Positions 1,408 through 33,108 of a stretch of 38,773 nucleotides of DNA are shown here, piece by piece; position 1 is the stretch's first letter; each line of letters starts with the position of its first letter. The notes beneath the pieces are model-generated. The model saw only the letters and a list, made by a program, of their open reading frames with translations, did not search any database and was not told the origin of the DNA. Made by a program: the position numbers and the translations under genes. Source of the DNA: a virus; IMG/VR virus record IMGVR_UViG_3300048833_000277, positions 1 to 38,773 of that record, one strand, 5' to 3'.

Positions 1408-2291
1408 CCGCGAAGACAATCAAACTTCCATCGCTCACTGCAGGGCTCACACTCACCTGTCTGGTGCGAAATCCGAGTACGCTGGCTCTGCTGGAGACTG
1501 TGGCGCTCGCCGCTGGATCTGGCGACGATGCCAGCATCTACACCGGCACGGTCACAGGTGCCCATGCTGGCCAGCTTCTGTTCGAGGTGCTCGTGTCTGG
1601 AACGGTGCTCGAAAAGCGGCTCCGGACGATCACAGACACCGCCGCCACGTTCGTGATTCTGACTGAGCTGGAAGAACGTGCGAACAATGGCCGTGGCGCT
1701 CATCCTGTTGCGATCACCATCACTGATCTGGACGATGTGGAGCTGGAGAATGCAGACATCCGCGCAGTGAGCGGGATTCTCGGCGGGTCCGGAATCACCG
1801 GCCCGGATGGCGTGAAGATCTTGTCGCTGAACTCTGCAACTTACACGATCACGATCACCTGCCCCGGCTTCGAGGGTTTGACCGAGGAACTGGTGATCTC
1901 TGGCACGACAGCGATCACCTACCAGCTCACTCCGCGCGTGGTGACTTTGCCGGAAGCTCCGGGCATGGCCACGGGCGTTCTGGTCGCACTGGACGAAATG
2001 CTGAATGTGGAGCCGGGCGTCGATGTTCACATTCAGCTCGTGACCGGGCGTGGCATCGCTGGATTCACGCTGGACACAAAGATCAGAACGCAAACCACAA
2101 ACAGCGAAGGTGCCGTCGAGTTCACTCGATTGGCTCACGGCGCCAAGTACTCCGTTTGGTCCGGTGCAATCGCAGAGGCCAACACCAGCCCATTCGCCGT
2201 CCGAGGTCGCAGCAACAAGGCCACCTTCACCGTTCCAGTGGCCGATAATTTCAATATCGCCGAGTTCCTCCGTCTGGATCCTGAAGAATGA
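1404..2291 (+). CDS. Putative tail fibre protein with Ig-like / carboxypeptidase-regulatory-like domain
   Basis: A 295-residue protein that starts at an ATGA overlap. Residues about 95-175 (AITITDLDDVELENADIRAV, followed by a TYTITITCPGFEG stretch) resemble a carboxypeptidase-regulatory-like or Ig-like beta-sandwich, in which a modifiable matrix is followed by a Y-x-I-x-I-x-x-x-G-F/Y strand. A second similar pattern occurs near residues 230-270 (TNSEGAVEFTRLAHGAKYSVW). Such domains are common on virion surfaces and fibres, where they act as spacers or weak glycan-binding modules. The gene is translationally coupled to both neighbours in the fibre block. The receptor is unknown. Confidence 0.65.
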   Translation: MTAKTIKLPSLTAGLTLTCLVRNPSTLALLETVALAAGSGDDASIYTGTVTGAHAGQLLFEVLVSGTVLEKRLRTITDTAATFVILTELEERANNGRGAHPVAITITDLDDVELENADIRAVSGILGGSGITGPDGVKILSLNSATYTITITCPGFEGLTEELVISGTTAITYQLTPRVVTLPEAPGMATGVLVALDEMLNVEPGVDVHIQLVTGRGIAGFTLDTKIRTQTTNSEGAVEFTRLAHGAKYSVWSGAIAEANTSPFAVRGRSNKATFTVPVADNFNIAEFLRLDPEE

Positions 2292-3748
2292 CAATCGCAA
2301 CACACATCATCGACATCACCGGTGGCACGCTGCACACAGTCGACAGCCTGCTGGAAGCCGCTGGCGACGCGGCTGCGCTGACCGGTCCGGAGATCGTCGC
2401 GGCGATCACAGCGGAACTCGGCAGCACCACCTGGCGGACTCATCCGTCGAACTCAGCGATCGTGACTGCCATCAACACGCAGCTCGGCAACACGAACTGG
2501 CAGACGCAACCGAGCAACGCCGCGATCGTCTCAGCCATCAACACGCAGCTCGGCGGAACAACATGGCAGAGCGGCGGTTCTGGCTCGCCGACTTTCGGCT
2601 CTCTCGGTGGTGCCGTCGCCGACAATGCTGCGCTGGTCGCAGAGTTTGCGACGAAGGCTGACGACGATCACACGCACGTGCTTGAAGATCTAACGGACCT
2701 CGACGTCAGCGCGGATATGGTCGCCTTCGATCAGGGCATTCGGCCAGGTCTGTACGACGATCTCGATGAGCCTCCAGTCGGTACGATTTTCGAAGGCTCT
2801 AACGATGGCCATCTTTACTGGTGCCACCGCGACGGATCCGTGCATCTGCTCTGCGACAGCGGCGGATACGGCGGCGGAACATGGGGCACCATCACCGGCA
2901 CGCTCAGCGATCAGGAAGATCTGCAGGAAGCTCTCGACGACAAGCAGCCGCTGGACAGCAATCTGACGCAGCTCTCGTCGCTGTCCACAAGTAGCGGTCA
3001 ATCAATAATTTTGGTCACGCCCACGGGCATGACGAAGATGGATATCAGTAACGATGTGCAGAGTCTGCTGGGATCGCTGACGCATCTGGCCTTTCGCACC
3101 GCGCTAGACGTGCCTCAGGCTTCGCACGTGGTCAGCGTCATGGGCGGCGATCAGTCGATCAGCGGGCAAAAGATTTTCATGGACGGCATCACGATCGGCG
3201 GAGGCAGTACGACAATCTGCACGATCAATTCCGGCGTCACGACGCAGTCACAGATTCTGCAGTTCCGACCAACCGACCTAACGTCCGCAAACGTCGCGTG
3301 CCTCGATCTATACGCCGGATCGGCAGCGACTCGACTTCCAGCACTGCGATTGTTTTCGGCGAATGCATCTTCCCCGCAGTACGGATTCCAAGTCGGAACC
3401 GGACCGGCCACGCTGGCCGCGAACACCTGGCACTTCGCCAGTACTGTCGTCGGCAGCAGCATGGCGAATTCGCTGCCATGGTCGATTACTGTCAGCAACA
3501 CTACAGACGGCCGCTTTAGCGCAATGGCGGTTGCGAATACTGGCGCCGTGACGATACCGAAGACACTCGCCGTCACAGGTGCCGTCAGCACCGGAATGCT
3601 GACGATCGGCGTCTACACGTTTGCGACAGTTCCATCCGCCAGCGCGAACACGGGCGCCACGATTCGAATCTCTGACAGATCACATCGGCTGGCGACGTCA
3701 AACGGCACCGTCTGGAACTGGGCAGGCTCCACAACCGCAATCTCGTAG
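2288..3748 (+). CDS. Putative tail fibre protein with short internal repeats
   Basis: A 486-residue protein starting at an ATGA overlap. Residues about 39-95 contain two and a half tandem copies of a 22-residue unit of the form LG-x-T-x-W-x-T-x-PSN-x-AIV-x-AINTQ (about nt 2404-2570). Residues about 127-150 carry a DDHTHVLEDLTDL motif; His/Thr-rich linkers of this kind are common in trimeric phage fibres. The C-terminal third is Ala/Thr/Ser-rich beta material (TIPKTLAVTGAVSTGMLTIG), typical of fibre shafts and tips. It is the last large structural gene before the glycosyltransferase. The stop codon lies beside a palindromic dispersed repeat (3749-3819). Confidence 0.75.
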   Translation: MTIATHIIDITGGTLHTVDSLLEAAGDAAALTGPEIVAAITAELGSTTWRTHPSNSAIVTAINTQLGNTNWQTQPSNAAIVSAINTQLGGTTWQSGGSGSPTFGSLGGAVADNAALVAEFATKADDDHTHVLEDLTDLDVSADMVAFDQGIRPGLYDDLDEPPVGTIFEGSNDGHLYWCHRDGSVHLLCDSGGYGGGTWGTITGTLSDQEDLQEALDDKQPLDSNLTQLSSLSTSSGQSIILVTPTGMTKMDISNDVQSLLGSLTHLAFRTALDVPQASHVVSVMGGDQSISGQKIFMDGITIGGGSTTICTINSGVTTQSQILQFRPTDLTSANVACLDLYAGSAATRLPALRLFSANASSPQYGFQVGTGPATLAANTWHFASTVVGSSMANSLPWSITVSNTTDGRFSAMAVANTGAVTIPKTLAVTGAVSTGMLTIGVYTFATVPSASANTGATIRISDRSHRLATSNGTVWNWAGSTTAIS

Positions 3749-3819
3749 CCCGATCTGTCTCAGATCGGGAATCTGGCCTCAACATCACACTGCCTGTCGT
3801 CGACCTGAGACAGGTCGAC
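3749..3819. repeat. Paired palindromic dispersed repeat (family A), intergenic copy 1
   Basis: Two perfect hairpins are seen: CCCGATCTG-tct-CAGATCGGG (3749-3769) and GTCGACCTG-aga-CAGGTCGAC (3799-3819), followed by CTACA. The same paired layout recurs at 20295-20367 and 33408-33465, and a variant occurs at 30847-30935. Each copy ends 15-24 bases before a start codon, here the ATG at 3838. It may act as an RNA hairpin or weak terminator, or be a mobile miniature repeat. It lacks a T-run. Confidence 0.85.
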
Positions 3820-3837
3820 CTACACAGAAAGACCATC

Positions 3838-4332: not shown

Positions 4333-5954
4333 TGTCGACGACTCAGACGCTGGCGTTGTTTGCTTCGTGTCCGATCCGGACAAAAGCCATCTCGAAGGGC
4401 GTGGCCTGGCTCCGCAAGCATCGGCCGATGGTCGAGAGCTGGGCTGCCGACCTGCGTCTCGACATGCAGGCCGTGCAGGCTGCCATCAATGCGGATCTCG
4501 CTGGCGAGCCGCAGGGCGTCAGCCCTCGGTGTGACTCGACGGTGCAAACACACGGAGGGCTGACGCCCAACCGCTCGCCTGGTATTTCGGCCGAAATAAC
4601 TGTCATCATCACGTGCCACAATTACGCTCACTTCCTGCAGGACTGTCTGGACTCCATCGCAGCATCCACGCTGCAGCCGACACACGTGATCGTGATCGAC
4701 GACTCCAGCGACACACCGCTGGCGTCTCTCGCCTTTGAAATTACAAATCTCAAATCTCAAATCGACTTCCAGCGAGTCGAATACCGCAGTCAGCACCTGA
4801 GCTGCCAGCATGGTTTCGACCAGTGCGTCACGAAGTACGTGCTCTGGCTGGATGCCGACGACAAGCTGCATCCGGATTACCTGCAGACGGCCGTCAGCAT
4901 GCTGGACTCAGACCGCGAGGCAGCGTTCGTCTTTCCGTTGCTGCAGGCGTTCGGCGATCGTGAAGGCATGATCTTTGATATCGACCGTGCACCTGACGTT
5001 GTGCGCTGGTCCGATCTGGAATCTCGGAACTGGTGCGGCGTCAGCACGATGTTCCGAGCGGACATCCTGCGTCAGTCGCTGGCTCTCCGGACCGACCGAG
5101 TCCCCGGTTGCGGCTGCAATGACTGGATCACCGCGCGGACTGTCCTCAGGTCCGGACCGTGGCACGGGCTCAAGTGCCCTGTGCCGCTGCTGTATCGCCA
5201 GCACGCGGCCGGTGCACACCTGCAGCCTGACTTTCCGAAGTACGAGCTGCAGGCGAACATCGCGCACGAAGTCGTGACGATCTGCGTGGCGTTCAGCGGC
5301 CGCTGGGAACCATGGTGGAAACTGCGCGAATGGATCATCAATCAAGACTGGCCATACAACCAGGTGCGATTGCTCATTCTGAACTCAACGCATGCCGACC
5401 TGACGGCCAAAGCTCTCGGCCTGGATGACATGCCGTTCGCTTCTCTGCAGATCGAACGCATCGACGTCGGATTCCCTTCGCTCGCCGAACAGGAACGTCG
5501 CAACCGGCAGGACATCTGCAGGCAGGTCGACAGCGCTGTGGCCGGACTCTACAACCGAGCGTTTCAATGTGCGTTCGGCGAGTGGATGCTGTTCGTCGAA
5601 GATGACGTAATTCCTCAGCGGCCGGATGCGATCGCACAATTGTTCAAAAGCGTTGGGCCAAACGTCGCGGCCGTCTCCGGAGTTTACCGGCATCGCTACG
5701 ACAACAACGCCGTCGCCTTCGGAGCCCCCAACGGCAAGCTGCCGATGCGAGACATGGACGGCCCAGCGATCGAACACGTGACCGGAACGGGATTCGGCTG
5801 CCTGCTCGCGCGTCGATCCGTCTTCACCCGCTTCGGCCTCTCCGGAGACGATCCCCGTGCATGGTTCTACGACGTCAACGCAGGCGTCCGAGTCGCTCGC
5901 ATGGGCTACCGCTGGATTCTGGATCGATCCGTCTACTGCGAGCATCTGGTGTGA
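4332..5954 (+). CDS. Two-domain family 2 glycosyltransferase
   Basis: A 540-residue cytoplasmic protein with two GT-A-like domains. Domain 1 (about residues 88-300) begins with an ITVIITCHNYAHFLQDCLDSI stretch and carries a metal-binding DADD at 174-177, typical of GT2 enzymes. Domain 2 (about 315-540) contains VEDD at 422-425 followed by an aromatic- and glycine-rich acceptor region. It would transfer sugars from nucleotide donors to an unknown acceptor, either host envelope glycan (receptor masking or conversion) or a virion protein. It is the last gene before the terminator and attP, so it would be end-proximal in the prophage. Two host-like dispersed repeats are translated in frame within it (residues about 57-83 and 134-145). 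Confidence 0.85.
   Translation: MSTTQTLALFASCPIRTKAISKGVAWLRKHRPMVESWAADLRLDMQAVQAAINADLAGEPQGVSPRCDSTVQTHGGLTPNRSPGISAEITVIITCHNYAHFLQDCLDSIAASTLQPTHVIVIDDSSDTPLASLAFEITNLKSQIDFQRVEYRSQHLSCQHGFDQCVTKYVLWLDADDKLHPDYLQTAVSMLDSDREAAFVFPLLQAFGDREGMIFDIDRAPDVVRWSDLESRNWCGVSTMFRADILRQSLALRTDRVPGCGCNDWITARTVLRSGPWHGLKCPVPLLYRQHAAGAHLQPDFPKYELQANIAHEVVTICVAFSGRWEPWWKLREWIINQDWPYNQVRLLILNSTHADLTAKALGLDDMPFASLQIERIDVGFPSLAEQERRNRQDICRQVDSAVAGLYNRAFQCAFGEWMLFVEDDVIPQRPDAIAQLFKSVGPNVAAVSGVYRHRYDNNAVAFGAPNGKLPMRDMDGPAIEHVTGTGFGCLLARRSVFTRFGLSGDDPRAWFYDVNAGVRVARMGYRWILDRSVYCEHLV
4503..4579. repeat. Imperfect 30-bp inverted repeat (family B) inside the glycosyltransferase gene
   Basis: The left arm at 4503-4532 starts GGCGAGCCGCAGGGCGTCAG and the right arm at 4550-4579 ends GACGCCCAACCGCTCGCC; they are largely complementary. 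The right arm belongs to the same family as 23872-23900, 33369-33397 and 36966-36989. Here the repeat is read through as protein, giving a GEPQGVSPR...HGGLTPNRSP linker before the first catalytic domain. Confidence 0.85.
4734..4763. repeat. AAATCTCAAA-type repeat (family C) translated within the glycosyltransferase
   Basis: An A/T-rich direct-repeat stretch built on TTTGAAATTACAAATCTC and CAAATCTCAAATC interrupts otherwise GC-rich coding sequence and encodes FEITNLKSQI. A closely similar element lies in the intergenic region at 10451-10481. It appears as a short insertion between the donor-binding half and the DADD motif of the first GT domain. Confidence 0.7.
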
Positions 5955-7912: not shown

Positions 7913-7982
7913 GGTGGGCTGGGCTAATTGGAAAGTCGCGGGACCGCGTCCCGAAATCGAGGTTCGACTCCTCGGCCTGCCG
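7913..7982 (+). tRNA. tRNA-like gene with shortened anticodon loop (degenerate or unusual tRNA)
   Basis: All arms of a tRNA are present. Acceptor 7913-7919 pairs with 7975-7981 (7 bp, two G-U). D stem GGCT/AGTC is at 7922-7925 and 7934-7937. T arm CGAGG-TTCGACT-CCTCG is at 7958-7974. The anticodon arm is abnormal: a 5-bp stem CGGGA/TCCCG (7939-7943, 7949-7953) closes only a 5-base loop CCGCG; or a 4-bp stem leaves a 7-base loop without U33 that would show anticodon CGC. No CCA is encoded. It sits 8 bases before tRNA-fMet. It may be a decayed tRNA or a tRNA mimic. Confidence 0.6.
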
Positions 7983-7990
7983 CTGATCTT

Positions 7991-8064
7991 CGCCGGGTAG
8001 AGCAGTCTGGAAGCTCGCTGGGCTCATAACCCAGAGGTCGCAGGTTCAAATCCTGCCCTGGCCA
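7991..8064 (+). tRNA. Initiator tRNA-Met (fMet, anticodon CAU)
   Basis: A full cloverleaf: acceptor CGCCGGG/CCTGGCC (7991-7997, 8057-8063), D arm GAGC/GCTC, anticodon arm CTGGG-CTCATAA-CCCAG with CAT at 8025-8027, T arm GCAGG-TTCAAAT-CCTGC, discriminator A8064, CCA not encoded. Three hallmarks mark it as initiator rather than elongator: an unpaired 1:72 position (C x C), three consecutive G-C pairs at the base of the anticodon stem (GGG/CCC), and the A11:U24 pair. An initiator tRNA in a temperate phage is rare. Confidence 0.92.
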
Positions 8065-8107
8065 TTTCCGTTCTGTCACTTCCTCACAATAGATTGGACT
8101 GCATGTC

Positions 8108-8518: not shown

Positions 8519-8926
8519 AGATACCTGATAGGGCTGGCTCTGCAAGGTGTGTCGCAAGGGGTCAAACTCGTTTCCGCCCTGAGCAACTTGGCTGCTGATC
8601 ACAGCCCCTGATGACAAATTGGACGAGAGCAACCAGCCCGCCATAAGAGCAGCCTCTGTGATCGAGAGGCGATGAGACGACCGGCCTGTCTGCATTATTC
8701 CGCAGCGGCCAGCGAATCGTGCACCGAACAGGCAGCAGATTCGCCGGATGTGATGGAGATGAATCGCATGCCGGTCTGATCATTCTGATTTTTCAAACCT
8801 GTTACAATAAGCCAACAACTATGTGGAACCCAATTCGAGCACGGCTGCCGAAATCTCTGATTTCTGCTGGCCTGCTTGTCACACTCGTTAGTAGTGTGCC
8901 GCCTCGCCATCAGGGGGGCACGCTCA
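8519..8926. other. 408-base intergenic stretch upstream of the integrase
   Basis: No convincing gene is seen on either strand. A TACAAT -10-like hexamer lies at 8803-8808 within an A/T-richer patch (about 8780-8820) without a good -35, and might be an integrase promoter. AGGGGGG (8912-8918) is the ribosome-binding site for the ATG at 8927. Confidence 0.5.
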
Positions 8927-10441
8927 ATGATTGCACCACTTCACCCGCAGCAGACAGACGCGACGTTCGACTCGCGTCCTATCACCATCCATCTGCACAT
9001 TCCACGCGAAATGACGGCAGCCTTTATGCAGCTCGTCACAGCCATCACGGCACAGAGATCGCTCTTTCAGGAAGACTTTGTCGCCCGATCTGTCTCAGAT
9101 CGGGAATCAGAACCGAGACTCTCACCGACAGGCCGCAAGGGACACGGCGAACAGTCGGTGAGACCAGCAGCGACTCCGGAAGCGGAGGCGTCGAACAGTG
9201 CAGAGGTGGAGGCACTGCCGACAGGCCCGCAAGCCGCAAGCCCGGAGCCCGCAACCGAGTCGCTGCTGGATTTGTATCGCCGACTGCTGAAGGACAAGCG
9301 GCTTCGGCGCGCGTCTCCCGACACAGTCGGAGACCATCAAACCGGCTTCCGGCTTTTCGACGAATACTTCGCCGAAACTCAGGCGTCTGGGAAAACATTG
9401 CACCGGTCTCAAGAACCGGTGCAATCTTTGTCGGATCCAGAAACCATCCGCAGTTTCGTCGATTGGCTCATCACAACGCGAGAAAACTCAGCGTTCACGA
9501 TCAATCGCCGACTCATCGCACTGAAGATGCTCGCGTCTCATCTCAAGCTGGACTACGAGCGGCCTTCGAAGTCGGAAATCGATCGACGCATCCGCGAACT
9601 CAGACCAAACGGGCGAAGCGTCGCGAAGCAGTCGAAGCGAGAAAAGCTCTCATCAAAAGAGGATGGCACATCGCTGCCGAATCGAAAGATTCCCAGCTTC
9701 GCCGAAATCGATGCGATGGCCAGAGCTGTCGATACACTTCGCTGGCCGTATGGCGATCACGCTCCGTACTTCTGGCGAGGATGGCTGAGAACTCTGGCGT
9801 TCATTGGTCCACGATCTCGCGACATCATTTCGACTGTCAGCCGAAAGCCAGGACTGCGCAAAGCCGACGTGATCTGGACACCTGGTTGTCCGATCACCGA
9901 TGTGGATTCTGCTCTCGGCCGGCCGCTGCTCAGTCCTCACGGATGGCTGTGGTATTCGATCGAAAAGGATCATCACAGCGACTGCCGCAAGATCCTGATT
10001 CCGATGCCGAAATGGATGCGCGACTGGGTCCGATTTTTCTTCGAACTCTCGGACCATCCGGAACGTGTGTTCCCAAGTACGCAGGCTGGTCGGAAGTCGC
10101 TTTCTCAGCCGTCGAAAACGAAGGCCTGGGACAAACTGATATCACTGTCCGGAGTGGATCCGCGGATCGTCGAATCGGAAGGCAAAGAGCACTCGATTGC
10201 CATTCGGAAGTATGCCGCCAACTGGTGGAAGCTGGCCGTACAGAAGCTGCAGAACCGCGACACGGATACGGATCTCGCCAAACAAACCGCATGGTACATC
10301 CTGCATCATGCGGAGGTCACAGTGTCCGACAAGCATTACCTCAGCACACAGGCCTCTGTGCTGCCGGTCATGCTGGAACTCATGGATCGCTGGCCGATCC
10401 CGGCCGCAGACGCTCCGCCGGTCAGCATGCTGCCGGAGTGA
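8927..10441 (+). CDS. int: Tyrosine recombinase / phage integrase
   Basis: A 504-residue protein; the start is fixed by AGGGGGG 8 bases upstream of the ATG. Residues about 1-100 are variable and include translated repeats. About 105-215 is a SAM-like core-binding domain (SLLDLYRRLLKDKRL ... FVDWLITTRENSAFTINRRL). The catalytic domain follows: Arg in FIGPRSRDII, a Lys region (EKDHHSDCRKILIPMP), SIAIRKYAANWW in place of the usual HxxR box, HH in WYILHHAEVT, and the nucleophile Tyr471 in KHYLS. It should integrate the phage at the tRNA-Ser attP at 6242-6302 and catalyse excision. The HxxR box lacks His at the usual spacing, so the fit to the family is divergent. Confidence 0.82.
   Translation: MIAPLHPQQTDATFDSRPITIHLHIPREMTAAFMQLVTAITAQRSLFQEDFVARSVSDRESEPRLSPTGRKGHGEQSVRPAATPEAEASNSAEVEALPTGPQAASPEPATESLLDLYRRLLKDKRLRRASPDTVGDHQTGFRLFDEYFAETQASGKTLHRSQEPVQSLSDPETIRSFVDWLITTRENSAFTINRRLIALKMLASHLKLDYERPSKSEIDRRIRELRPNGRSVAKQSKREKLSSKEDGTSLPNRKIPSFAEIDAMARAVDTLRWPYGDHAPYFWRGWLRTLAFIGPRSRDIISTVSRKPGLRKADVIWTPGCPITDVDSALGRPLLSPHGWLWYSIEKDHHSDCRKILIPMPKWMRDWVRFFFELSDHPERVFPSTQAGRKSLSQPSKTKAWDKLISLSGVDPRIVESEGKEHSIAIRKYAANWWKLAVQKLQNRDTDTDLAKQTAWYILHHAEVTVSDKHYLSTQASVLPVMLELMDRWPIPAADAPPVSMLPE
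9084..9104. repeat. Family A palindrome inside the integrase gene
   Basis: CCCGATCTG-tct-CAGATCGGG is identical to the first hairpin at 3749-3769, but here it lies within coding sequence and is translated as part of VARSVSDRESE. It falls in the poorly conserved N-terminal region of the integrase. Confidence 0.9.
9397..9425. repeat. Perfect 11-bp inverted repeat in the integrase gene
   Basis: ATTGCACCGGT (9397-9407) and ACCGGTGCAAT (9415-9425) are separated by 7 bases and lie in frame in the core-binding domain. It resembles the other translated repeats and may be another inserted palindromic element. Confidence 0.85.
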
Positions 10442-10450
10442 GCTTCGCTC

Positions 10451-10481
10451 AATTTGAGATTTCAAATTTGAAATTTCAAAT
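10451..10481. repeat. Family C A/T-rich repeat between integrase and next gene
   Basis: Alternating AATTTGAGATTTCAAATTTG and AAATTTCAAAT segments form a near-palindrome of 31 bases, just before a GGAGGG ribosome-binding site for the ATG at 10497. It is related to the translated stretch at 4734-4763. Confidence 0.85.
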
Positions 10482-10496
10482 CGCACGGAGGGCATC

Positions 10497-10829
10497 ATGA
10501 CTCAGAAAGGCGAACAGTCCTTCGAGGCGATGCTGATCAACTATCTGCTGGCAGTCGTCTCGCAGGCAGCTCAGGCGAAAGAGTCTCGCCGCATTCCGGA
10601 TTTCGTGCCGAGTCGGATTCGCATTTCAGAAGAGTATCGCGGCACATTCGAGCCGGGTGAATACGACTGCAGCACGACGCTCTACGGTCTGATGTTGGTC
10701 AAAAAGTCGGACGGTTTCAAAACGGACTCATTCGAGATCTACGTGCACGAATGCGAAATCCTGGCACTGCGGCCCAATCTGAAGAAACAGATCTTCGAGC
10801 GAGAAAAGAAAGGCAACACGGCAACATGA
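10497..10829 (+). CDS. Hypothetical early protein
   Basis: A 110-residue protein starting after a clear GGAGGG site. The N-terminal half is helical (QSFEAMLINYLLAVVSQAAQAKESRR) and the rest is mixed with acidic patches and two cysteines; it ends in a basic tail (LKKQIFEREKKGNTAT). No known family is recognised. It is the first gene of the early operon downstream of the integrase, and its stop overlaps the next start (ATGA at 10826-10829), so the two are probably co-translated. Confidence 0.65.
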   Translation: MTQKGEQSFEAMLINYLLAVVSQAAQAKESRRIPDFVPSRIRISEEYRGTFEPGEYDCSTTLYGLMLVKKSDGFKTDSFEIYVHECEILALRPNLKKQIFEREKKGNTAT

Positions 10830-11206: not shown

Positions 11207-11292
11207 GACTGCCTGCTGATCTTATCTAAGACTGTGTGCACTCGCAGCGACACGCAGTTGCCCGTCTCATGCTGCATCGAAAGGAATCGATC

Positions 11293-11490
11293 ATGTTAGT
11301 CCTGTCCAGAAAAGTCTCCGAAGTCATTCACATCGGCGATCAAATCAGAGTGATGATCGTTCGCATTGGTCCTAATTCGGTGCGCGTCGGAATCGAGGCC
11401 CCGGAGGACATGGCAATCGTTCGAGACGAACTGCTGCCAGATTCGCCATCATCCCTCACACCAATTCCAGAACTCACGGAGGCTCGCTAA
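11293..11490 (+). CDS. csrA: CsrA family translational regulator, copy 1
   Basis: A 65-residue homologue of CsrA/RsmA, a dimeric RNA-binding protein that binds GGA motifs in hairpin loops, commonly over ribosome-binding sites, to block translation or change mRNA decay. The signature MLVLSRKVSEVIHIGD is intact and the key Arg44 is present (AIVRDEL). The start at 11293 is chosen because MLVLSRK is the conserved N terminus and AAGGAA lies 6-7 bases upstream. The C-terminal tail is longer and Pro-rich compared with E. coli CsrA. It overlaps the next gene (TAATG). It is divergent from copy 2 at 22803, so the two are not a recent duplication. Confidence 0.93.
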   Translation: MLVLSRKVSEVIHIGDQIRVMIVRIGPNSVRVGIEAPEDMAIVRDELLPDSPSSLTPIPELTEAR

Positions 11491-11879: not shown

Positions 11880-12169
11880 AGTTTGAATTCGAACTGTATC
11901 GATCAGAAGAGAAAGAACACCAGGTCGCTGGGCTGAAGTGTTCATCGTTTGAAGTGCGCGGTGAGACGGACTCGACCTCGATCTATCGAGTGAAAGAGTT
12001 CGCGATTCGATTGATGGCGATTCCCGGCGTGTACTTCCTGCAGATCCGCAACTCGCAAGAGAACCGCGATTGGCGAGATTTCGGCCCGATCGACACAAGG
12101 AATCCGGAACAGGCGGCGAAGCCGAAAACCTCAAACCGAAAACCGAAAACGGGAGCGAAGCGACCATGA
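11876..12169 (+). CDS. Hypothetical protein with repeat-encoded tail
   Basis: A 97-residue protein starting at an ATGA overlap. Residues 1-75 are a compact mixed fold (KFEFELYRSEEKEHQVAGL ... FAIRLMAIPGVYFLQI). The last ~20 residues (AKPKTSNRKPKTGAKRP) are encoded by a GAAAACC-type dispersed repeat (about 12122-12150) read in frame, another case of a repeat extending a protein. Function unknown. Confidence 0.6.
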   Translation: MKFEFELYRSEEKEHQVAGLKCSSFEVRGETDSTSIYRVKEFAIRLMAIPGVYFLQIRNSQENRDWRDFGPIDTRNPEQAAKPKTSNRKPKTGAKRP

Positions 12170-15253: not shown

Positions 15254-16408
15254 ATGACCACTCCACAATTACGATTCGACTCCATCAGCGATCAGACACG
15301 CGCACGCTGGGCGAAGCTGCTGGATTCCGCTCGGCGAGATCTGACGCCACGAATGCGTCAACTGATCCGCATCGCTCTGGACGCCTGCGATTCTGTAGGT
15401 CCGCCGAAGATGCAGGCCAGACTGATCGGCGGAGGTATTTCGCTGTGGATACTGTGCCCTCAGGCGGAGCTGGCCGAGCTGCTGCGCTGCAGTGACCGCA
15501 CTCTTCGGACCGAATTCGAGCGGCTCAGTACTCTGCAGGCTCTGGAGACGGAGCCTCACGAGACCATCGCCAATCTGATCGGCTACCGGATCGATTTGGC
15601 TGTGCTGGAGTCTCTGCAAGAGAGTCTGACTCCGGAGCTGGATGAGATCATTTTCCAGTGGATGGAACGACAGGCAGAAGCTGCTTCCGTCTCCCTTTCC
15701 GGAGTCATTGCCGACGGTGTTTCCGTGGCGGTTTCCGCCAGTGTTTCCGGTCAGATTTCCGCCCCCATTTCCGGTGGTATTTCCGGTCACTTTTCCGGCG
15801 GAATTTCCGCCCCTGTTTCCGGTCAGATTTCCGCTCTAACTGATAATGATAATGATAATCATTATTTAATTACTTCTGATGATGATCATCATGATGAGTC
15901 TTCGGAAACGACAGCCGTCTGGGACATGACTTCGCAGGAACCTCTGAGCTTCCGCGAGATCCGAGATTTCCACGCCGAGGCGATCGCAGGAAAAACCGTC
16001 GACGGTGCTGTGCTCTCGCTGCGACAACGCTGGGTGCTGTTCATGCGGTACTGGTCCGATGTGAAAGTCACCGAGCCAGGACCGCTGAGCCAGGCGGACG
16101 CGACGGAGCTGCTGGCGTTGTTCATTTACTGGGGCCGAGCGAAAACCAACAAAAGTCGTGGCGGTGCAATCCGGACCTGGTGGGGCAATCGCCGCAGTCA
16201 GCCGATCATCGCAACGGTGAAGGCCTCTCTGATCGACGAGGCGCGGCGAGTGATGGCCGCTGGCCTCGGCACCGTGCAACGGGCGCCACAGCCCGCCAGC
16301 GTTCCACCTCGCGTTCCAGACGGCCAGCGAATCAAGCGTCTGAATCTCGATGCGATGAAAGAACGAATTCTGAAAGCCAAAGCGGAGGCCGCTCAGCCAT
16401 GCCAATGA
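15254..16408 (+). CDS. Replication initiator protein with internal origin (lambda O-like arrangement)
   Basis: A 384-residue protein. Residues 1-135 look like winged-helix DNA-binding material (ELAELLRCSDRTLRTEFERLSTL is a good helix-turn-helix). Residues about 144-195 are a four-residue-periodic Ser/Gly/Ile linker (SGQISAPISGGISGHFSG) encoded by a 12-bp iteron array. An Asp/His-rich stretch is encoded by A/T-rich DNA. The C-terminal ~170 residues are helical and basic and may recruit the helicase or its loader. Iterons followed by an AT-rich region inside an initiator gene is the lambda O/ori design. The ATG at 15254 lies 30 bases after the previous stop. Confidence 0.75.
   Translation: MTTPQLRFDSISDQTRARWAKLLDSARRDLTPRMRQLIRIALDACDSVGPPKMQARLIGGGISLWILCPQAELAELLRCSDRTLRTEFERLSTLQALETEPHETIANLIGYRIDLAVLESLQESLTPELDEIIFQWMERQAEAASVSLSGVIADGVSVAVSASVSGQISAPISGGISGHFSGGISAPVSGQISALTDNDNDNHYLITSDDDHHDESSETTAVWDMTSQEPLSFREIRDFHAEAIAGKTVDGAVLSLRQRWVLFMRYWSDVKVTEPGPLSQADATELLALFIYWGRAKTNKSRGGAIRTWWGNRRSQPIIATVKASLIDEARRVMAAGLGTVQRAPQPASVPPRVPDGQRIKRLNLDAMKERILKAKAEAAQPCQ
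15684..15839. repeat. 12-bp iteron array (13 units), putative replication origin
   Basis: TTTCCG recurs exactly every 12 bases at 15696, 15720, 15732, 15744, 15756, 15768, 15780, 15792, 15804, 15816 and 15828; one-mismatch units fill 15684 (CTTCCG) and 15708 (TTGCCG). Unit tails alternate GGTCAG, CCCCCA and GGTGGT types. Strict phase plus the adjacent A/T-rich tract argue for protein-binding iterons rather than chance. Confidence 0.8.
15838..15895. other. A/T-rich unwinding element next to the iterons
   Basis: Three TGATAA repeats, then TCATTATTTAATTACTTC and a GATGATGATCATCATGATG near-palindrome. This is the most A/T-rich stretch of a GC-rich genome, and it directly follows the 12-bp array, as expected for a DNA-unwinding element of a lambda-type origin. 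Confidence 0.7.
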
Positions 16409-19264: not shown

Positions 19265-19383
19265 GCAAGTCTCTCGCGGTCTCAGCCGTCAGATTGAGTT
19301 GTCGTCATCGCCCAGCGATTCGCCGAAAACTGAACACCGAAAACCGAAAACCCTTGTGAAAGAAAAAGTCATAACTCAATAAC

Positions 19384-20288: not shown

Positions 20289-20294
20289 ACGCCG

Positions 20295-20367
20295 CCCGAC
20301 CTGTCCTCAGGTCGGGACTCTGGCCCCCTTTGCCACACGGCCCCGATTCCGATCTGAGACAGATCGG
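20295..20367. repeat. Paired palindromic dispersed repeat (family A), intergenic copy 2
   Basis: CCCGACCTG-tcct-CAGGTCGGG (20295-20316) and CCGATCTG-aga-CAGATCGG (20349-20367) lie between the holin-like gene and the ATG at 20385. The layout is the same as at 3749-3819 and 33408-33465. Confidence 0.9.
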
Positions 20368-20384
20368 ACCACAGGAAGACACCC

Positions 20385-20843: not shown

Positions 20844-21690
20844 GCCAGTCCTCTTTACCGGTTACGACTGCACTCGCGAGCCTCGCGAGAAACTTGTCGC
20901 CGCTTCGCTCGATTACGACTTCGAGCAGTTTCGCTGCAGTGGTGACATTCCCGAAACTCGCCGCATCAAAGATCTGATGACCGCTGAGAAAATCCGCGAA
21001 GATCAGTATCGCATGAATTCGTGCGCTGGCTTCGGATTGATTCACTCGGCAGCCGTTGGATTCTGGCTGGCGACTGGCATCTGGCGAGCATTCAATCCGC
21101 ACTGGACCTATCGCCTCGGCCAGGCTCGTGACGGCATTCGTGGCGACAACGGTGCGACGATCCACAACGTTGTCGAGTCCGCGAAATCGGACGGCCTGCT
21201 ACCGCAGGACATCGAGAACGACGGGCGAAAAGAGTACCCGTTTCCGCGAGATCAGTACGACTTCCGCTATCCGCCACAGGCGAAAACGTTGGCCGCAGAA
21301 CGCACAGTCGGCTACTCGGTTGTCCTGCGATCGTTCCGCGCTTGCCTGAACTTTCTGCAAGCCGGTCAGGGTGCCATCGTCATCGGCGGACCGTGGGGCA
21401 ACTGGCAGCCAGGTCCTGGCGGAATCTGCAATCAGTTTCGGTCCGGCGGCGGCGGTCATGCTCGCGCCTACGTGGACTGGATCACGATCCGTGGTCAGGT
21501 CTATCTGGTCGAAGCGAATTCGCATTTCGAACAGTACGGCGATCGTGGCTTCGCGTACCACAGCGAACAGTTTGTCGATCAGCAATGCCGTGATCGCTAC
21601 TTCGTCGCGATCGGAATCAGCGACATCAAGCTCGGCCAGAACGACAAGCCGAAACAGCGACGCCACCGACGATTCGTTAAGCTCGTTTGA
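20836..21690 (+). CDS. Papain-like cysteine peptidase (C1-type), candidate lysis or processing enzyme
   Basis: A 284-residue protein. It has the papain order of catalytic residues: Cys63 in DQYRMNSCAGFG (compare the DQG-x-x-x-SC-x-x-F/W motif), His208 in GGGGHARAYVDW, and Asn228 in VEANSHFEQYGDRGFAYHS, which resembles the NSW-G-x-x-WG-x-x-GY region. There is no signal peptide. It lies in the cassette with a holin-like and an anchored membrane protein where an endolysin is expected, and no lysozyme or amidase is seen elsewhere. It may cleave envelope protein or peptide cross-links. A host-takeover protease is the alternative. Confidence 0.7.
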   Translation: MSRPVLFTGYDCTREPREKLVAASLDYDFEQFRCSGDIPETRRIKDLMTAEKIREDQYRMNSCAGFGLIHSAAVGFWLATGIWRAFNPHWTYRLGQARDGIRGDNGATIHNVVESAKSDGLLPQDIENDGRKEYPFPRDQYDFRYPPQAKTLAAERTVGYSVVLRSFRACLNFLQAGQGAIVIGGPWGNWQPGPGGICNQFRSGGGGHARAYVDWITIRGQVYLVEANSHFEQYGDRGFAYHSEQFVDQQCRDRYFVAIGISDIKLGQNDKPKQRRHRRFVKLV

Positions 21691-21700
21691 AAGCGAAACC

Positions 21701-22753
21701 ATGAACCGTGTCACACGAATTGAACTCCTGATCGCATGCGCGATCGCCTGCTTTCTCGCGTTCTGTCTTGCATCAGTCGGGCGATGCGACGACATCACGG
21801 ACGCAAAGAAACGTCTGCAGGAAATCGAGCGAGCGAAGCCAGCTCCGCACGTCATCGATCCAGCTCCGTTGACGCCAGTGCCTGATCCGATTTCCGACCG
21901 TCGCAGCCCAGCAATTGAGTTTCAGGCTGCGAATTCTGACGTTCAAATCAGCGAACGTCTTCCGCGTGCTGTGCTGGTCTGTGGTCAGTATTGCTCGCCG
22001 TGCTTACGAATGGAGAAGGAGCTGGAGGGACTTGTCGGCGGACCGTCAATGCCGATTCAGGTGGTGAGTAACTGGCTGGCCAACGATCTCGACAAATGGG
22101 GCATCGCTCCCAGCATGCAGCTCGGCACGCCGTACCTGTTTATTTTGGACAAAGAGGGCAAGGTTCACGCTCTCACGCCCGCGGGACTTGGCTGCGTTCT
22201 GCGAGGCTATCAGACAAAAGACACCGTGCTGCAGTATCTGGCGAAGCCGGAACATGGCGTCGACATCAACACGCAGCCGGCGCCAATGCAGTCGATGACC
22301 GCCGATGTGCACGACGCCACAGCAACCCCGGAAACATTCGCCGCAGTGCTTGCGGCACATCTTGCGGAAACGAGCGGTCAGCAGGCGGCGGACCCAGTTC
22401 TGGACGGTCTCGGACCGAGCCAGGTGTACGGCAGCCTTTTCGATCTGACCATCGACGCACCTGATACGTGGCGACTGATGGCAGCGAAACTGTTGACCGC
22501 TCAAAGGATCACTTTCGAGAGCGCTGGCATCACGCTCGACTGGACCGGCCCGAAGCGAACGTTTGTTATCGGTGGTGGCCGGTCTCAGACCGAGCCACAG
22601 CAGATGCAGATCAGTCCGCCGGTGAAGGTCACTCTGAACAAATGGATGATTCGGTATTCATGCTCACTCGACGGTGTCAGCTACACGCCGGATCTGACAC
22701 GCATGACCATGCTGCTGAGCGGCGCTCCGGATCTGACGGTCAACCTTCGGTAG
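21701..22753 (+). CDS. Exported thioredoxin-fold protein with CSPC motif
   Basis: A 350-residue protein with a signal peptide (about residues 1-29: RIELLIACAIACFLAFCLAS), a Pro-rich linker, and a thioredoxin-like domain at about 88-200. The active-site type motif is C98-S-P-C101 in VLVCGQYCSPCLRME, and the cis-Pro region is GTPYLFILD. A C-terminal ~140-residue domain has no recognised family. The protein probably acts in the periplasm on disulphides, possibly activating the neighbouring peptidase or altering envelope proteins. It follows the papain-like gene by 10 bases. Confidence 0.75.
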   Translation: MNRVTRIELLIACAIACFLAFCLASVGRCDDITDAKKRLQEIERAKPAPHVIDPAPLTPVPDPISDRRSPAIEFQAANSDVQISERLPRAVLVCGQYCSPCLRMEKELEGLVGGPSMPIQVVSNWLANDLDKWGIAPSMQLGTPYLFILDKEGKVHALTPAGLGCVLRGYQTKDTVLQYLAKPEHGVDINTQPAPMQSMTADVHDATATPETFAAVLAAHLAETSGQQAADPVLDGLGPSQVYGSLFDLTIDAPDTWRLMAAKLLTAQRITFESAGITLDWTGPKRTFVIGGGRSQTEPQQMQISPPVKVTLNKWMIRYSCSLDGVSYTPDLTRMTMLLSGAPDLTVNLR

Positions 22754-22802: not shown

Positions 22803-22997
22803 ATGCTGGTACTCAGTCGGAAGAAGGACGAAAAGATCGTCATCGGCGACAACATCACGCTGATGGTGATCGAGATTCGAGGCGACAAAGTTCGTCTGGG
22901 GATCGAGGCGCCGAAGGACGTGAGCGTACACCGGCAGGAAGTCTACGAAGCAATTCGACGTGACGGAGCTCGCGAATCGGACAGTGCTAACCCTTGA
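22803..22997 (+). CDS. csrA: CsrA family translational regulator, copy 2
   Basis: A 64-residue CsrA with the canonical N terminus MLVLSRKKDEKIVIGD and the RNA-contacting VSVHRQEVY segment with Arg44, closer to cellular CsrA than copy 1. AGGGAG upstream supports the start. The two copies share only the family core, which suggests separate acquisition or specialisation, for instance one early and one late. Its 3' end overlaps the convergent antitoxin-like gene by 11 bases. It would bind GGA-containing hairpins of host and phage mRNAs. Confidence 0.95.
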   Translation: MLVLSRKKDEKIVIGDNITLMVIEIRGDKVRLGIEAPKDVSVHRQEVYEAIRRDGARESDSANP

Positions 22998-23328
22998 CGG
23001 TCACCAGAATCTCCACGCCGATCGCTTCTGCGACGCGTCGCAGAGTCGTCATCGTGGGATTGCCTTTTCCGTTCTCCAGAAGTGACAAGCTGGCTCGCGT
23101 GATGCCGGTTTTGTCGCAAACGTCCTGCAGAGACAACCCACGCTTTTCACGAGCTTCCTTCAGGGCTGTTAACACATCCATAAACTCAAGCTGCCGCTGT
23201 TCGACCTCTTCAAACACCTGACGGGCACGTGCCTTGTTCGCAGCAATGACCTCAGGCCGCTCTTCTTCGGCAATGGCCTTGCTCAGTCGTGCTTCCATCT
23301 CGGGCGTCGGTTTCAGGCGTTTCGACAT
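22987..23328 (-). CDS. XRE-type antitoxin-like DNA-binding protein
   Basis: A 113-residue reverse-strand protein. The N-terminal ~45 residues are helical and charged (MSKRLKPTPEMEARLSKAIA), and residues about 50-113 are an HTH_3 domain (ALKEAREKRGLSLQDVCDKT, GITRASLSLLENGKGNPTMT). The start at 23328 is preferred over one 23 codons earlier because GAGAG precedes it and the longer form would overlap the toxin gene. It follows the toxin-like gene by 17 bases in one operon, so it likely neutralises it and represses the operon. Confidence 0.75.
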   Translation of the reverse strand: MSKRLKPTPEMEARLSKAIAEEERPEVIAANKARARQVFEEVEQRQLEFMDVLTALKEAREKRGLSLQDVCDKTGITRASLSLLENGKGNPTMTTLRRVAEAIGVEILVTVKG

Positions 23329-23345
23329 GACGTCACTCTCTTTCT

Positions 23346-23582
23346 TCAGACCTCGTAGGCCGTGACCGGAATCACGGAGACATCTTCTTCCACCCACTCA
23401 AACACCACTGCAATCCGGCGACCATCAAGAGCAGCGCCAAAGCGAATCAGGCGGTTACTGGAATGGCTCATTTCTTCACGGTAGTGGTTTTCGAAAGCAA
23501 ATTCGAAATCGTCCTGAGTCAACCCATGCTGAGCCACTTTATCAATCGCTCTTTCTGACCAGTAGTACTCGAACCAAGCCAT
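23346..23582 (-). CDS. BrnT/RelE-like toxin of a toxin-antitoxin pair
   Basis: A 78-residue reverse-strand protein, MAWFEYYWSERAIDKVAQHG, with a C-terminal VFEWVEEDVSVIPVTAYEV stretch. The pattern of a small basic-acidic alpha/beta fold ending in a V-x-PVTA motif resembles BrnT-like ribonuclease toxins (and the related DUF4258 group). TAAGGA precedes the ATG on the reverse strand. The downstream partner is an XRE protein rather than the ribbon-helix-helix partner usual for BrnT. A TA module in a phage can serve stability, superinfection exclusion or abortive defence. Confidence 0.65.
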   Translation of the reverse strand: MAWFEYYWSERAIDKVAQHGLTQDDFEFAFENHYREEMSHSSNRLIRFGAALDGRRIAVVFEWVEEDVSVIPVTAYEV

Positions 23583-23685
23583 TGAATCGTTCCTTAACCC
23601 CCGAACTGTTGTTTCGGCAAATCATAACGCGGCCGTTGGTGTTATTAAACAACAAAACAGATGTTTTCAGAAAACCGTGACGTGA

Positions 23686-26112
23686 ATGCCACGCAAACCG
23701 ACCAAAAAAGCCGCCGCCAAATCTTCGAAGCCGGTGACTCCTTCGCCGAGTGCTGTGAAGCGGCCGCCGAAGAAATCCGCGGCGAAGAAAGCGGCGAAGA
23801 AGAAAGCGAAGAAGCGAGACGAGAAAGACTCCTCGCCGATTGGATCGACGAACGCATCAGCAGGTACTGCGCACGGAGGGCTAACGCCCAGCCGCTCGCC
23901 GAAAATGAAAGTGCAACCGACGGCAGTGACTCCGGTACCGGAGACGCAGGCCTACGAGGAACACAAGTCACGCAGCCGAGAGCGGCAAGCGAAGATCGTC
24001 CGCGAAGGTCAGGACATTGGAGCGATTCCGGAGCCAGCGAATCCGAAACGCCGCGCGAAGTGTGAACGAAATCTGAATCAGTTCTATCGGACCTACTTCC
24101 CGGACGTGTTCGCGCATCCGTGGAGCCGAGTGCATACCAGACTGATTAAGCTCATCACCATGGCGGTGCTGATGGGCTGCATGCTGGCGGTCGGGATCCC
24201 ACGCGGATTCGGCAAGACGTCGATGTGCGTCCGAGCGGTCATCTGGGCCATCTGTTATCGCCATCACACTCTGATCATGCTCTTCGCTGCCACCAACGAA
24301 GCGGCGGCAGATCTGATCAAAGACATTCAGACCGAGCTGACAACGAATCCGTTGTTACTCGAGGACTTCCCGGAGATCTGTCTGCCGCTCATTGAGGTCG
24401 GCAGCGCGAACCAGAAAGGCCGCGGTCAGCTCTGCCAGGGCGAACCGACGAACGTTAAGGTCCGCAGCAACGAACTATGGACCGGAGACGTACTGCGTTC
24501 TGCGGACGGCAGCGTCATTCCTGGCGCTTGCATCTGGGCCTGTGGCATCACGGCGGGTGGAATTCGAGGGAAACGGCGAACCGTCGACGGCAGGGTTCTG
24601 CGGCCCACGCTGGGACTGGCAGACGACTGCCAGACGCGTTCCAGTGCAATCAGCCCTCGTCAATGCAATCGCCGCAAGAACATTCTGGAAGCGGACCTGC
24701 CTGGACTTCCCGGGCAATCGAACAGTTGGTCGTTTCTTTCCACATGGACCGTCATTGAACCCGACGACACTGCGGACTGGGTACTGAATCGCGAGAAAGC
24801 TCCGGACTACCACGGCCTGCGTGAACGGTTCCTTGATGCGATGCCTGACGACAAGGCGATGGAGAAATGGTCGGAGTGGAATGAGATCCGCATTCGATGC
24901 CAGCAGGCGGCTGGGTTGTCCGACGATGACCTGGATACCTTTGACGACCATGATCCGCTCGAACCCGCGCATGAGTTCTTCGACAAACACAAGAAGGTGA
25001 TGATTCGCGGTGCAAAAGTTGTCTGGGAGTATGCCTACGATCCAAAACGGTATCGGTGTGCGCTGGAAAAGGCGATGCACTGGTACTACCGCAACAAGCT
25101 GGCGTTCTACAGCGAATTGCAAAACGATCCCGCCGCGTTCCAGGTCGAAGCAAAACCGCAACTCAAGAAGTTTGATCTGTCGACTCGCTTCGGTCTGCAT
25201 CCACGCGGCACAGTTCCGCGCGGATCTCAGTGGCTCACGGTCGGGATCGACGTCCAGGGCAAAGTGCTGATGTGGTCGGTCCGCGCGTGGGCTCAGGATT
25301 CAACTAGTCAGGTGATCGAGTACGGCACCTGGCCCGGTCAGAATCGGCAGTACTTCACGCTGTCCGACATCCGTCTGACGATCGACGCCCATTACAGCAG
25401 CCTTCCGACATGGGAAGTCCGGCTCGCAGCAGCTCTGCGAGATCTGCTCACGAAACTGTTCGGCCAGCAGTGGCCGCGCGAAGACGGCCTGCAGCTCAGC
25501 CTCACTGCCGGTGGCGTCGATGCAAACTGGCAGACGGATGCCGTGAAAGCGGCGGTCATGGCGAGCGGATTCTACGGCAAGGTGTATCCGACGCACGGCC
25601 GTTCGTTCACGACGGCTCATCAGACGCTGAACGAATCGGCTGTTCGCGATCGCGACATCGTTGGCGACAACTGGCGTCTGAGACAGCCAAAGCAAGGCGA
25701 CGTGCAGTTCGTCACGTTCGACACGAACGTCTTCAAGTCTCAGTTGCGTGATCGGCTCATGATGAACATTGCCCAGCCGGGAGCGTTGACGCTCCATCTG
25801 GGACCGTCTCACGACATGTGGGCCGATCACATCTGCGCAGAACGTTGCCACGAAAAGCTGGATAAGACCCGCAATCGTGAATACGACGAATGGATGAAAC
25901 TGCCAAACCTCGACAACCACTATCTCGACTGTGAAGTGATCAACAACGTCGTGGCCGGAATGCTGGGAATCCGTCTGCCGATCGGGGCTGCAGCCCTGGA
26001 CGCCGTGAAAGCCATCGCCGCGATGCCGACCTCTTCACACTCGAATCAGAATCAGAATCAGCCTGTTCCAAACGCCGCCAACTACAAACCTTTTGCAAAG
26101 AAACGATCATGA
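23686..26112 (+). CDS. terL: Terminase large subunit (GpA family)
   Basis: An 808-residue packaging motor. The ATPase domain has Walker A GIPRGFGKTSM (about 170-180) and Walker B LGLADD (309-314). The nuclease domain shows acidic residues in GIDVQG (520-525), GVDANW (610-614) and NHYLDCEV (744-751), as in lambda gpA-type enzymes that cut and translocate concatemeric DNA into proheads. The first ~75 residues are an unusual Lys/Ala-rich tail (SAAKKAAKKKAKKRDEK) that includes a translated family B repeat. The ATG at 23686 has no good ribosome-binding site; a start after the tail is possible. No small terminase subunit is identified next to it. Confidence 0.92.
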   Translation: MPRKPTKKAAAKSSKPVTPSPSAVKRPPKKSAAKKAAKKKAKKRDEKDSSPIGSTNASAGTAHGGLTPSRSPKMKVQPTAVTPVPETQAYEEHKSRSRERQAKIVREGQDIGAIPEPANPKRRAKCERNLNQFYRTYFPDVFAHPWSRVHTRLIKLITMAVLMGCMLAVGIPRGFGKTSMCVRAVIWAICYRHHTLIMLFAATNEAAADLIKDIQTELTTNPLLLEDFPEICLPLIEVGSANQKGRGQLCQGEPTNVKVRSNELWTGDVLRSADGSVIPGACIWACGITAGGIRGKRRTVDGRVLRPTLGLADDCQTRSSAISPRQCNRRKNILEADLPGLPGQSNSWSFLSTWTVIEPDDTADWVLNREKAPDYHGLRERFLDAMPDDKAMEKWSEWNEIRIRCQQAAGLSDDDLDTFDDHDPLEPAHEFFDKHKKVMIRGAKVVWEYAYDPKRYRCALEKAMHWYYRNKLAFYSELQNDPAAFQVEAKPQLKKFDLSTRFGLHPRGTVPRGSQWLTVGIDVQGKVLMWSVRAWAQDSTSQVIEYGTWPGQNRQYFTLSDIRLTIDAHYSSLPTWEVRLAAALRDLLTKLFGQQWPREDGLQLSLTAGGVDANWQTDAVKAAVMASGFYGKVYPTHGRSFTTAHQTLNESAVRDRDIVGDNWRLRQPKQGDVQFVTFDTNVFKSQLRDRLMMNIAQPGALTLHLGPSHDMWADHICAERCHEKLDKTRNREYDEWMKLPNLDNHYLDCEVINNVVAGMLGIRLPIGAAALDAVKAIAAMPTSSHSNQNQNQPVPNAANYKPFAKKRS
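23872..23900. repeat. Family B repeat translated in the terminase tail
   Basis: CACGGAGGGCTAACGCCC then AGCCGCTCGCC, nearly identical to 4551-4579 and 33369-33397, is read in frame as HGGLTPSRSP, matching the HGGLTPNRSP peptide in the glycosyltransferase. Confidence 0.9.
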
Positions 26113-26489
26113 CGCGCTCAAACAAACGTGACTATCAGCAAAGTGAATCGAAGGCCAGTTCCTGCCGGAAGTGTCGCAGCACTCGACGATCGGCATACTT
26201 CGGCCAGCCACAGGTCCGAGTGTTCGACTTCGTGCAACGCCGGCCAGACGGCACGGAGTTCACTCGGCTGATTCGCCGCCGGACCAAATGCACGGACTGC
26301 GGACAGTTCCGATTTGACTTGTCCTATGAGTTCGTGCCATCCGACATTCCGGCGCCAAAGCCAAAGCCTGCAGCGACTCCGAAAAAGAAGTCACCGGCAG
26401 CCGGAAAGAAGAAGCAACCGCCAGCGGCGGCAGTCACTCCCCCGGACACATTGCCGACGTTCCTCGGAGCTGCGAGCGCGAACGGGTGA
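26109..26489 (+). CDS. Zinc-ribbon-like hypothetical protein after the terminase
   Basis: A 126-residue protein starting at an ATGA overlap. Two CxxC pairs, CRKC (about residue 19) and CTDC (about 61), could form a zinc ribbon flanking an RVFDFVQRRPDGTEFTRLIR hairpin. The C-terminal third is a Pro/Lys/Ala-rich tail (KPKPAATPKKKSPAAGKKKQ), probably disordered and DNA-binding. The position suggests a packaging accessory; it might replace the missing small terminase, but this is speculative. Confidence 0.65.
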   Translation: MTRSNKRDYQQSESKASSCRKCRSTRRSAYFGQPQVRVFDFVQRRPDGTEFTRLIRRRTKCTDCGQFRFDLSYEFVPSDIPAPKPKPAATPKKKSPAAGKKKQPPAAAVTPPDTLPTFLGAASANG

Positions 26490-28321: not shown

Positions 28322-28332
28322 GTCCGCGATTT

Positions 28333-28363
28333 ACTGAACACTGAAAACTGAACACTGAAAACT
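28333..28363. repeat. Family D tandem repeat
   Basis: ACTGAACACTGAAAACTGAA and CACTGAAAACT form two 16-base units just after the portal stop and 10 bases before the protease ATG at 28373. Confidence 0.9.
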
Positions 28364-29791: not shown

Positions 29792-29817
29792 CAACGCCGC
29801 TGAAGCGGATGCGATTC

Positions 29818-29850
29818 ACTGCACACTGACGACTGAACACTGACAACCTT
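29818..29850. repeat. Family D-type repeat before the capsid gene
   Basis: ACTGCACACTGACGACTGAA and CACTGACAACC are degenerate units of the ACTGAACACTGAAAAC family, ending 15 bases before the capsid ATG at 29866. Confidence 0.7.
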
Positions 29851-30843: not shown

Positions 30844-30846
30844 TCG

Positions 30847-30935
30847 TAGCCCGTTGTTGTGGCACGGTCTGAGACCGGCCACAACGAGGGTTCTGCTTTG
30901 CGACGTGCACACATCCCGACCTGAGACAGGTCGGG
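30847..30935. repeat. Family A repeat variant after the capsid gene
   Basis: The first hairpin is replaced by a longer one: GTTGTGGC ... GCCACAAC enclosing CGGTCT-g-AGACCG (about 30855-30885). The second, CCCGACCTG-aga-CAGGTCGGG (30915-30935), is followed by CTACTTTTT and could act as a partial terminator between capsid and connector genes. It ends 24 bases before the GTG at 30959. Confidence 0.85.
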
Positions 30936-30958
30936 CTACTTTTTCGAAAGTCGGAACC

Positions 30959-31246
30959 GTGAACCTGAACGAACTGAATGAGACGATCAAGCGAATCGTG
31001 CCACTCGCCACCACAGTCGTGGCGGGACTCACGGACAGCACAGGGCTGTCTGGCACGCACGACGACACGCTGGCCGCAACCAGTGTGCCGGTCAACATCA
31101 GCGGTGGAGAAGCTCCGACCGAGGCGGAATTCAACGCACTGCTGGCGGTTGTGCGAGTGATCGCACAGAACGCGAGCGATACCGCACAGAAGCTGAACGA
31201 AGTCATCGCGGCCCTAAAAGCCGCGAACCTGATGGCCGAGTCCTGA
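30959..31246 (+). CDS. Hypothetical head-region protein
   Basis: A 95-residue protein with GTG start (CGGAACC just upstream). A helical N terminus (NLNELNETIKRIVPLATTVV) is followed by a Gly/Thr-rich turn region and a C-terminal helix (QKLNEVIAALKAANLMAES). It lies between capsid and connector genes, so it may be a head decoration, capsid-associated or connector protein. No family is recognised. Confidence 0.65.
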   Translation: MNLNELNETIKRIVPLATTVVAGLTDSTGLSGTHDDTLAATSVPVNISGGEAPTEAEFNALLAVVRVIAQNASDTAQKLNEVIAALKAANLMAES

Positions 31247-33056: not shown

Positions 33057-33068
33057 TCTGCGATTGTC

Positions 33069-33090
33069 CGAAAACTGAACACTGAAAACC
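33069..33090. repeat. Family D repeat after the tail tube gene
   Basis: CGAAAACTGAACACTGAAAA lies between the tail tube stop and the ATG at 33109. It closely matches the units at 28333-28363 and 36997-37020. Confidence 0.9.
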
Positions 33091-33108
33091 TTAAACGGAG
33101 CAAGAACC

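Follow-up and report, generated by a model that had tools for sequence, protein, structure and literature searches.

The paired palindromes of the virus record examined here, termed Family A, are likely to be REP doublets of the GTAG super-family in the HH arrangement (REPINs), forming a clan of one planctomycete family that is carried in a phage and moved in trans by a host RAYT. The window, i.e. the whole 38,773-base virus record that was analysed, has a 127-bp direct terminal repeat and contains tailed-phage genes for terminase, portal, tape measure, head protease, and major head protein. Its annotated large genes lie on the + strand and are separated by short gaps. Also encoded are a CsrA-like global regulator (11236-11490; Pfam PF02599, E 7.5e-19) and, side by side, tRNA-Ala(cgc) and tRNA-Met(cat) (7913-8065). 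Two tandem arrays lie within genes, one rich in TTCCGN (15685-15840) and one of 15-nt, AAEK-like repeats in the head-protease ORF (29267-29476).

Each Family A unit consists of GTAG followed by a perfect stem of 8-9 bp (9 bp in the window) and a loop of 3-4 nt. The left unit reads GTAG-CCCGAYCTG-TC(C)T-CAGRTCGGG, the right unit is the reverse complement of GTAG-NYCGAYCTG-TCT-CAGRTCGRN, and the units are paired in inverted orientation with their tags facing outward; a whole pair thus reads GTAG...CTAC. Three full doublets, one half-doublet, and one singlet were found in the window, giving 8 units in 38.8 kb (Table 1). The palindromes that an earlier note on this DNA had placed at 3749-3819, 20295-20367, and 33408-33465, with a variant at 30847-30935, could all be observed there, but on each outer side the unit extends 4 nt further than had been drawn; the GTAG tags could then be recognized, and the element was therefore identifiable. 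GTAG adjoins the 9-bp perfect stem in 5 of the 8 window units, with GTGG in one more, and the tag is met in most relatives too; over 30 units, G1 and T2 are nearly invariant and G4 is invariant. A reversed-sequence control gave no comparable tagged family. The window has 11 hairpins whose 9-bp arms pair perfectly around a 3-4-nt loop, against a mean of 0.55 in 20 dinucleotide shuffles, and Family A accounts for 8 of the 9-bp-arm hairpins listed.

Table 1. Positions of Family A elements, other repeats, and the polymorphic site in the window
Feature	Position	Strand	Details
REP doublet 1, 79 bp	3745-3823	left +, right -	left REP 3745-3769, right REP 3799-3823; hairpins 3749-3769 and 3799-3819
REP singlet, damaged tag GTCG	9080-9104	+	hairpin 9084-9104; in frame inside integrase-like ORF 8876-10441
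REP doublet 2, 82 bp, decayed tags	20291-20372		left tag GCCG, right tag GTGG on - strand; hairpins 20295-20316 and 20348-20368
Disrupted doublet 3	30846-30939	right -	GTAG 30846-30849, then unrelated hairpin ~30855-30885; intact right REP 30915-30939, hairpin 30915-30935
REP doublet 4, 66 bp, short-spacer	33404-33469	left +, right -	left REP 33404-33429, right REP 33445-33469; hairpins 33408-33429 and 33445-33465
Second palindrome family (GGCGAGC...GGGCGTNAGCCC)	4503-4579, 23868-23900, 33365-33397, 36918-36990		multi-copy in MAGs G001 and G003
Short tandem heptamers (CTGAAAA / CCGAAAA / CTGAACA)	12114-12151, 19315-19352, 28326-28363, 29811-29848, 33060-33097, 34233-34270, 36991-37028		in gaps
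Empty site	26097-26112	+	terminase stop overlaps next start; empty in window and L070; 79-bp doublet in L011 (5744-5822)

Full doublets with outward tags were also seen in the virus records L011, L009, and L068 and in chromosomes. Those of related phages measure 63-79 bp, against 79, 82, and 66 bp in the window. Two forms, one with a long spacer (GGGANTCTGGCC...) and one with a short spacer, recur at unrelated places in other phages. The place of the left REP in disrupted doublet 3 is taken by a separate hairpin type, GTGGC-ACGGTCTGAGACCG-GCCAC, which recurs inverted at 22572-22602 inside ORF 21371-22753; no match was obtained when this hairpin was sought as a repeat in three planctomycete MAGs (G001-G003). 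As for the extra single hairpin that the earlier note had put inside the integrase gene, the hairpin itself is in place and in frame, whereas the gene compares with Phage_int_SAM_1 only below cut-off (E 0.016). Relatives of this integrase-like ORF were found neither in viral contigs, where the overlapping ORF 8719-10497 in another frame served as query, nor among 150 genomes of the planctomycete family.

The anatomy closely follows that described for the GTAG super-family, whose REPs carry an unpaired GTAG at one end of a 6-9-bp stem with a short loop, have complementary stem variants, and often supply a stop codon through the tag (Di Nocera et al. 2013; PMC3733652). Their outward HH dimers are mostly 20-100 bp apart, are intergenic, and have been reported also from Planctomycetes (PMC3733652). 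Family A shares the tag, stem, loop, stem variants, outward pairing, intergenic place, and stop codon; the features of membership found in it are the unpaired tag, outward pairs with a short spacer, and complementary stem sub-families. It differs in that its carrier is a phage and its chromosomal copies are very few in the genomes seen, and the likeness is one of described format. For REPINs, the doublet rather than the single REP looks mobile, the inverted pair can form one long hairpin, and singlets look decayed (Bertels and Rainey 2011; PMC3116915); in Family A, likewise, the doublet looks like the mobile unit and singlets look decayed. The group-3 TnpA_REP REPtron of Stenotrophomonas maltophilia, with an 8-bp perfect palindrome, a 3-nt loop, and GTAG ahead (PMC8266576), has the same format in a different phylum.

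Stem structure was then compared over 30 units drawn from phage records and chromosomal contigs. For the nine stem pairs, 96.3% of cells are paired, and four pairs are altered on both sides, giving 37 double-sided cells where shuffles gave 12.6 and slid controls no more than 3. The compensatory changes claimed earlier are thus borne out, and the stem structure is preserved, although the covariation is compatible with either a DNA or an RNA function. Template-switch correction of quasi-palindromes could contribute to paired stem changes. As RNA, the doublets fold far better than shuffled sequences (z -3.8 to -6.4) and are able to form either two hairpins or a single long one, the long hairpin being the RNA fold in three of five Family A cases. 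In the Rfam comparison, tRNA was the only family above gathering score in the window and Family A had no match, so a known RNA family was rejected as its identity.

Such folding, the covarying stems, and the position of the four window copies raise the alternative that the elements are cis-acting RNAs under selection, in which a doublet switching between two small hairpins and one long hairpin near the ribosome-binding site would control translation or stability of neighbouring phage genes. The earlier note had put the copies 15-24 bases upstream of start codons; the measured range is 14-23 nt, with gaps of 18 nt (ATG 3838), 16 nt (ATG 20385), and 14 nt (ATG 33480) for the full doublets, and 23 nt from the half-doublet hairpin at 30915-30935 to GTG 30959, in frame with ORF 30809-31246. 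In a packed genome read from one strand, however, any intergenic insert precedes a start. The doublet in L068 lies ~185 nt away from the next start, and chromosomal copies, intergenic where examined, sit at the 3' ends of genes or between convergent ones. No doublet is present at the orthologous genes of L012 or in the window and L070 alleles of the L011 site. We consider an RNA-element origin unlikely on these grounds, and the earlier suggestion of regulatory RNA hairpins as the reason for their presence was not upheld.

That copies sit so close ahead of start codons is mainly a consequence of the packed, one-strand genome, in which doublets fill intercistronic gaps. Surviving inserts fall between a stop and a start because the large genes lie on the + strand with short gaps, and no dedicated translational role is needed to explain the placing, given this packing, the distance in L068, and the 3'-end and convergent chromosomal copies. 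TAG 3746-3748 within the tag of doublet 1 is the stop codon of ORF 2288-3748, and GTAG supplies the upstream stop codon also in L011 and L068. Hairpins in such gaps may well affect transcripts; as a side effect, altered mRNA stability or uncoupling of overlapping genes would be possible.

For the comparison of empty and filled sites in sister phages, a check proposed in the earlier note, two records near-identical to the window over most of their own length (L010 and L011) and a 95% relative (L070) were available. L011 has a doublet at a site that is unoccupied in both the window and L070, and the stop codon of its terminase comes from the GTAG of this doublet. An imperfect 9/10-bp direct repeat (AAAGAAACGA / AAAGAAGCGA; one filled/empty pair) surrounds the L011 insert, as would be expected of MITEs with terminal inverted repeats that are moved by a DDE transposase and leave target-site duplications. 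No flanking direct repeats could be seen by eye at the other doublets, and each half is a full palindrome with an unpaired GTAG tag, which is the REP format and not the usual MITE format; this origin is therefore regarded as very improbable.

In 50-base steps, L011 is 98-100% identical to the window before ~26050 and after ~26150, and its substitutions cluster around the filled site, at window positions 26077-26118. This clustering makes local recombination or repair the probable source of the filled allele, with insertion accompanied by local mutation as the alternative. The same patch, with both sides essentially identical, would fit doublets that have ceased to transpose and that homologous recombination redistributes among phages as old passengers. 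By itself, homologous recombination did not give rise to the window sites, whose flanks differ from one another, and both spacer types turn up again in other phages at unrelated positions; we hold out little prospect for this account. Mosaic exchange between the strains was seen elsewhere: the terminase alignment of the window with L011 averages 89% identity while the adjoining DNA is near-identical, and a segment upstream of the terminase (22973-23681) is swapped for different DNA in L011 (3030-3373). The more diverged relative L012 (capsid 77%) contains no Family A unit and, at the place matching 33408, has heptamer repeats directly before the start codon.

Searches outside the window were carried out with the unit consensus. 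Of 84,980 species, 3 contained the exact tagged pattern, and these are planctomycete MAGs of one family (G001 and G003, in the family of G002). With up to 2 mismatches allowed, a related pattern was present in 6 of 150 genomes of this family, one of the six (G483) being a weak match without an intact tag, against one match of the reversed-pattern control; G003 was the sole match in a sample of 392 genomes of the phylum. The search thus returned planctomycete copies, and the stems of phage and chromosomal units covary, where the earlier note had weighed absence from any bacterial genome and lack of covariation against its reading; both outcomes favour a real, conserved element. Chromosomal doublets with outward tags can have longer spacers, of 122-263 bp (L076, L020, L092, and L082). 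Near 695-718 of one chromosomal contig (L088; G477:C252), a singlet is found a short way upstream of an ORF that, read by eye, appears to begin like Cas2. No DNA match was found in isolated phages to doublet 1 (query 3741-3823), nor in plasmids to doublet 4 (query 33400-33472). Tag-free matches in other viral contigs (L058-L067) have no GTAG and were set aside as looking like chance.

Density differs greatly between the two settings, with ~200 units per Mb in the window against no more than ~1 per Mb in the chromosomes examined. No high-copy host chromosome was found among the 392 phylum genomes or the 150 family genomes, copies being few per MAG and absent from most. This low copy number weakens, but does not exclude, membership of the GTAG REPs, since published families include small ones, and the true host may lie outside sequenced genomes.

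Other repeats of the window point to the same host group. The GGCGAGC...GGCGTNAGCC palindrome gave 45, 1, and 14 matches in G001, G002, and G003, respectively, and the CTGAAAA/CTGAACA heptamers gave 16, 20, and 17, with 0 in controls in both cases. The phage thus carries part of the repeat repertoire of the planctomycete family. The heptamer arrays of the window are mostly directly ahead of start codons and are also present in L012. Of 170 genomes from the family that holds the chromosomal Family A copies, 19 encode relatives of the phage capsid protein, with best identities of 38-46%. On sequence grounds, this is a phage of planctomycetes, with its host placed at the level of the family.

GTAG-tagged palindromes in outward doublets are known or proposed RAYT substrates (PMC3733652, PMC3116915, PMC8266576), and RAYT/Y1 genes are present in all three MAGs. 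No Y1 transposase gene was found in the window or in four related virus records, and a phage-encoded mover was rejected for this reason. We infer a host RAYT as the mover and a direction from host to phage, the latter because a chromosomal clan exists and the phage record is without a Y1 gene. A host RAYT (TnpA_REP, Y1/HuH) would recognize the tagged hairpins when replication in the host exposes phage or prophage DNA as single strands, and would move the doublet in trans to new sites. Insertions would survive only in the narrow gaps between genes and could later decay, as may have happened to the singlet at 9080, the disrupted half at 30846, and the lost tags at 20291; doublets would also pass between phage strains by recombination, as perhaps in L011.

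Several results count against the REPIN reading. No Family A hairpin was found when the flanks of 27 Y1 loci were scanned for GTAG-headed hairpins; one locus in G001 (L031) has its own GT[AG]G-headed hairpins around the Y1 gene, which are not Family A. When ORFs near chromosomal copies were compared with RAYTs, only the L043/L026 locus matched, and its flanks carry a different repeat. Besides this lack of a RAYT with Family A flanks, no high-copy chromosome was seen, and the L011 allele is not a clean transposition footprint. The earlier proposal of transposase-mobilized miniature elements acquired from the host accords well with the tagged outward doublets, the planctomycete clan, and the polymorphism at one site; its transposase step is considered likely, although the search for a cognate RAYT gave none.

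Elements of this kind are already known, and the unusual part is the phage carrier and the density. REPINs have been portrayed as populations that live within a chromosome, are linked to a RAYT, and pass on mostly by vertical inheritance, and a published model holds it unlikely that they are copied onto a mobile carrier (PMC8049555); Family A differs from them in sitting on a phage and in that no RAYT was found for it. Our partial coverage of the literature yielded no earlier account of a phage carrying REPINs. How REP doublets, common bacterial repeats, reach new lineages is an unsettled question. We tentatively raise the possibility, itself doubtful, that phages are a main home and vehicle of this REPIN population, whose compact 63-82-bp doublets would live and spread in a group of planctomycete phages, rely on RAYTs of the host acting in trans, and travel with the phage to new hosts; if so, this would be a horizontal route of the sort deemed unlikely in the REPIN literature. 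A phage species with several doublets, one of them polymorphic, offers a concrete carrier in which gain and loss can be watched on a small genome, and if a cognate RAYT is found, its action on phage DNA would become testable. Should the doublets instead be passive host debris in phage gaps, Family A would still be a useful marker of the host group.
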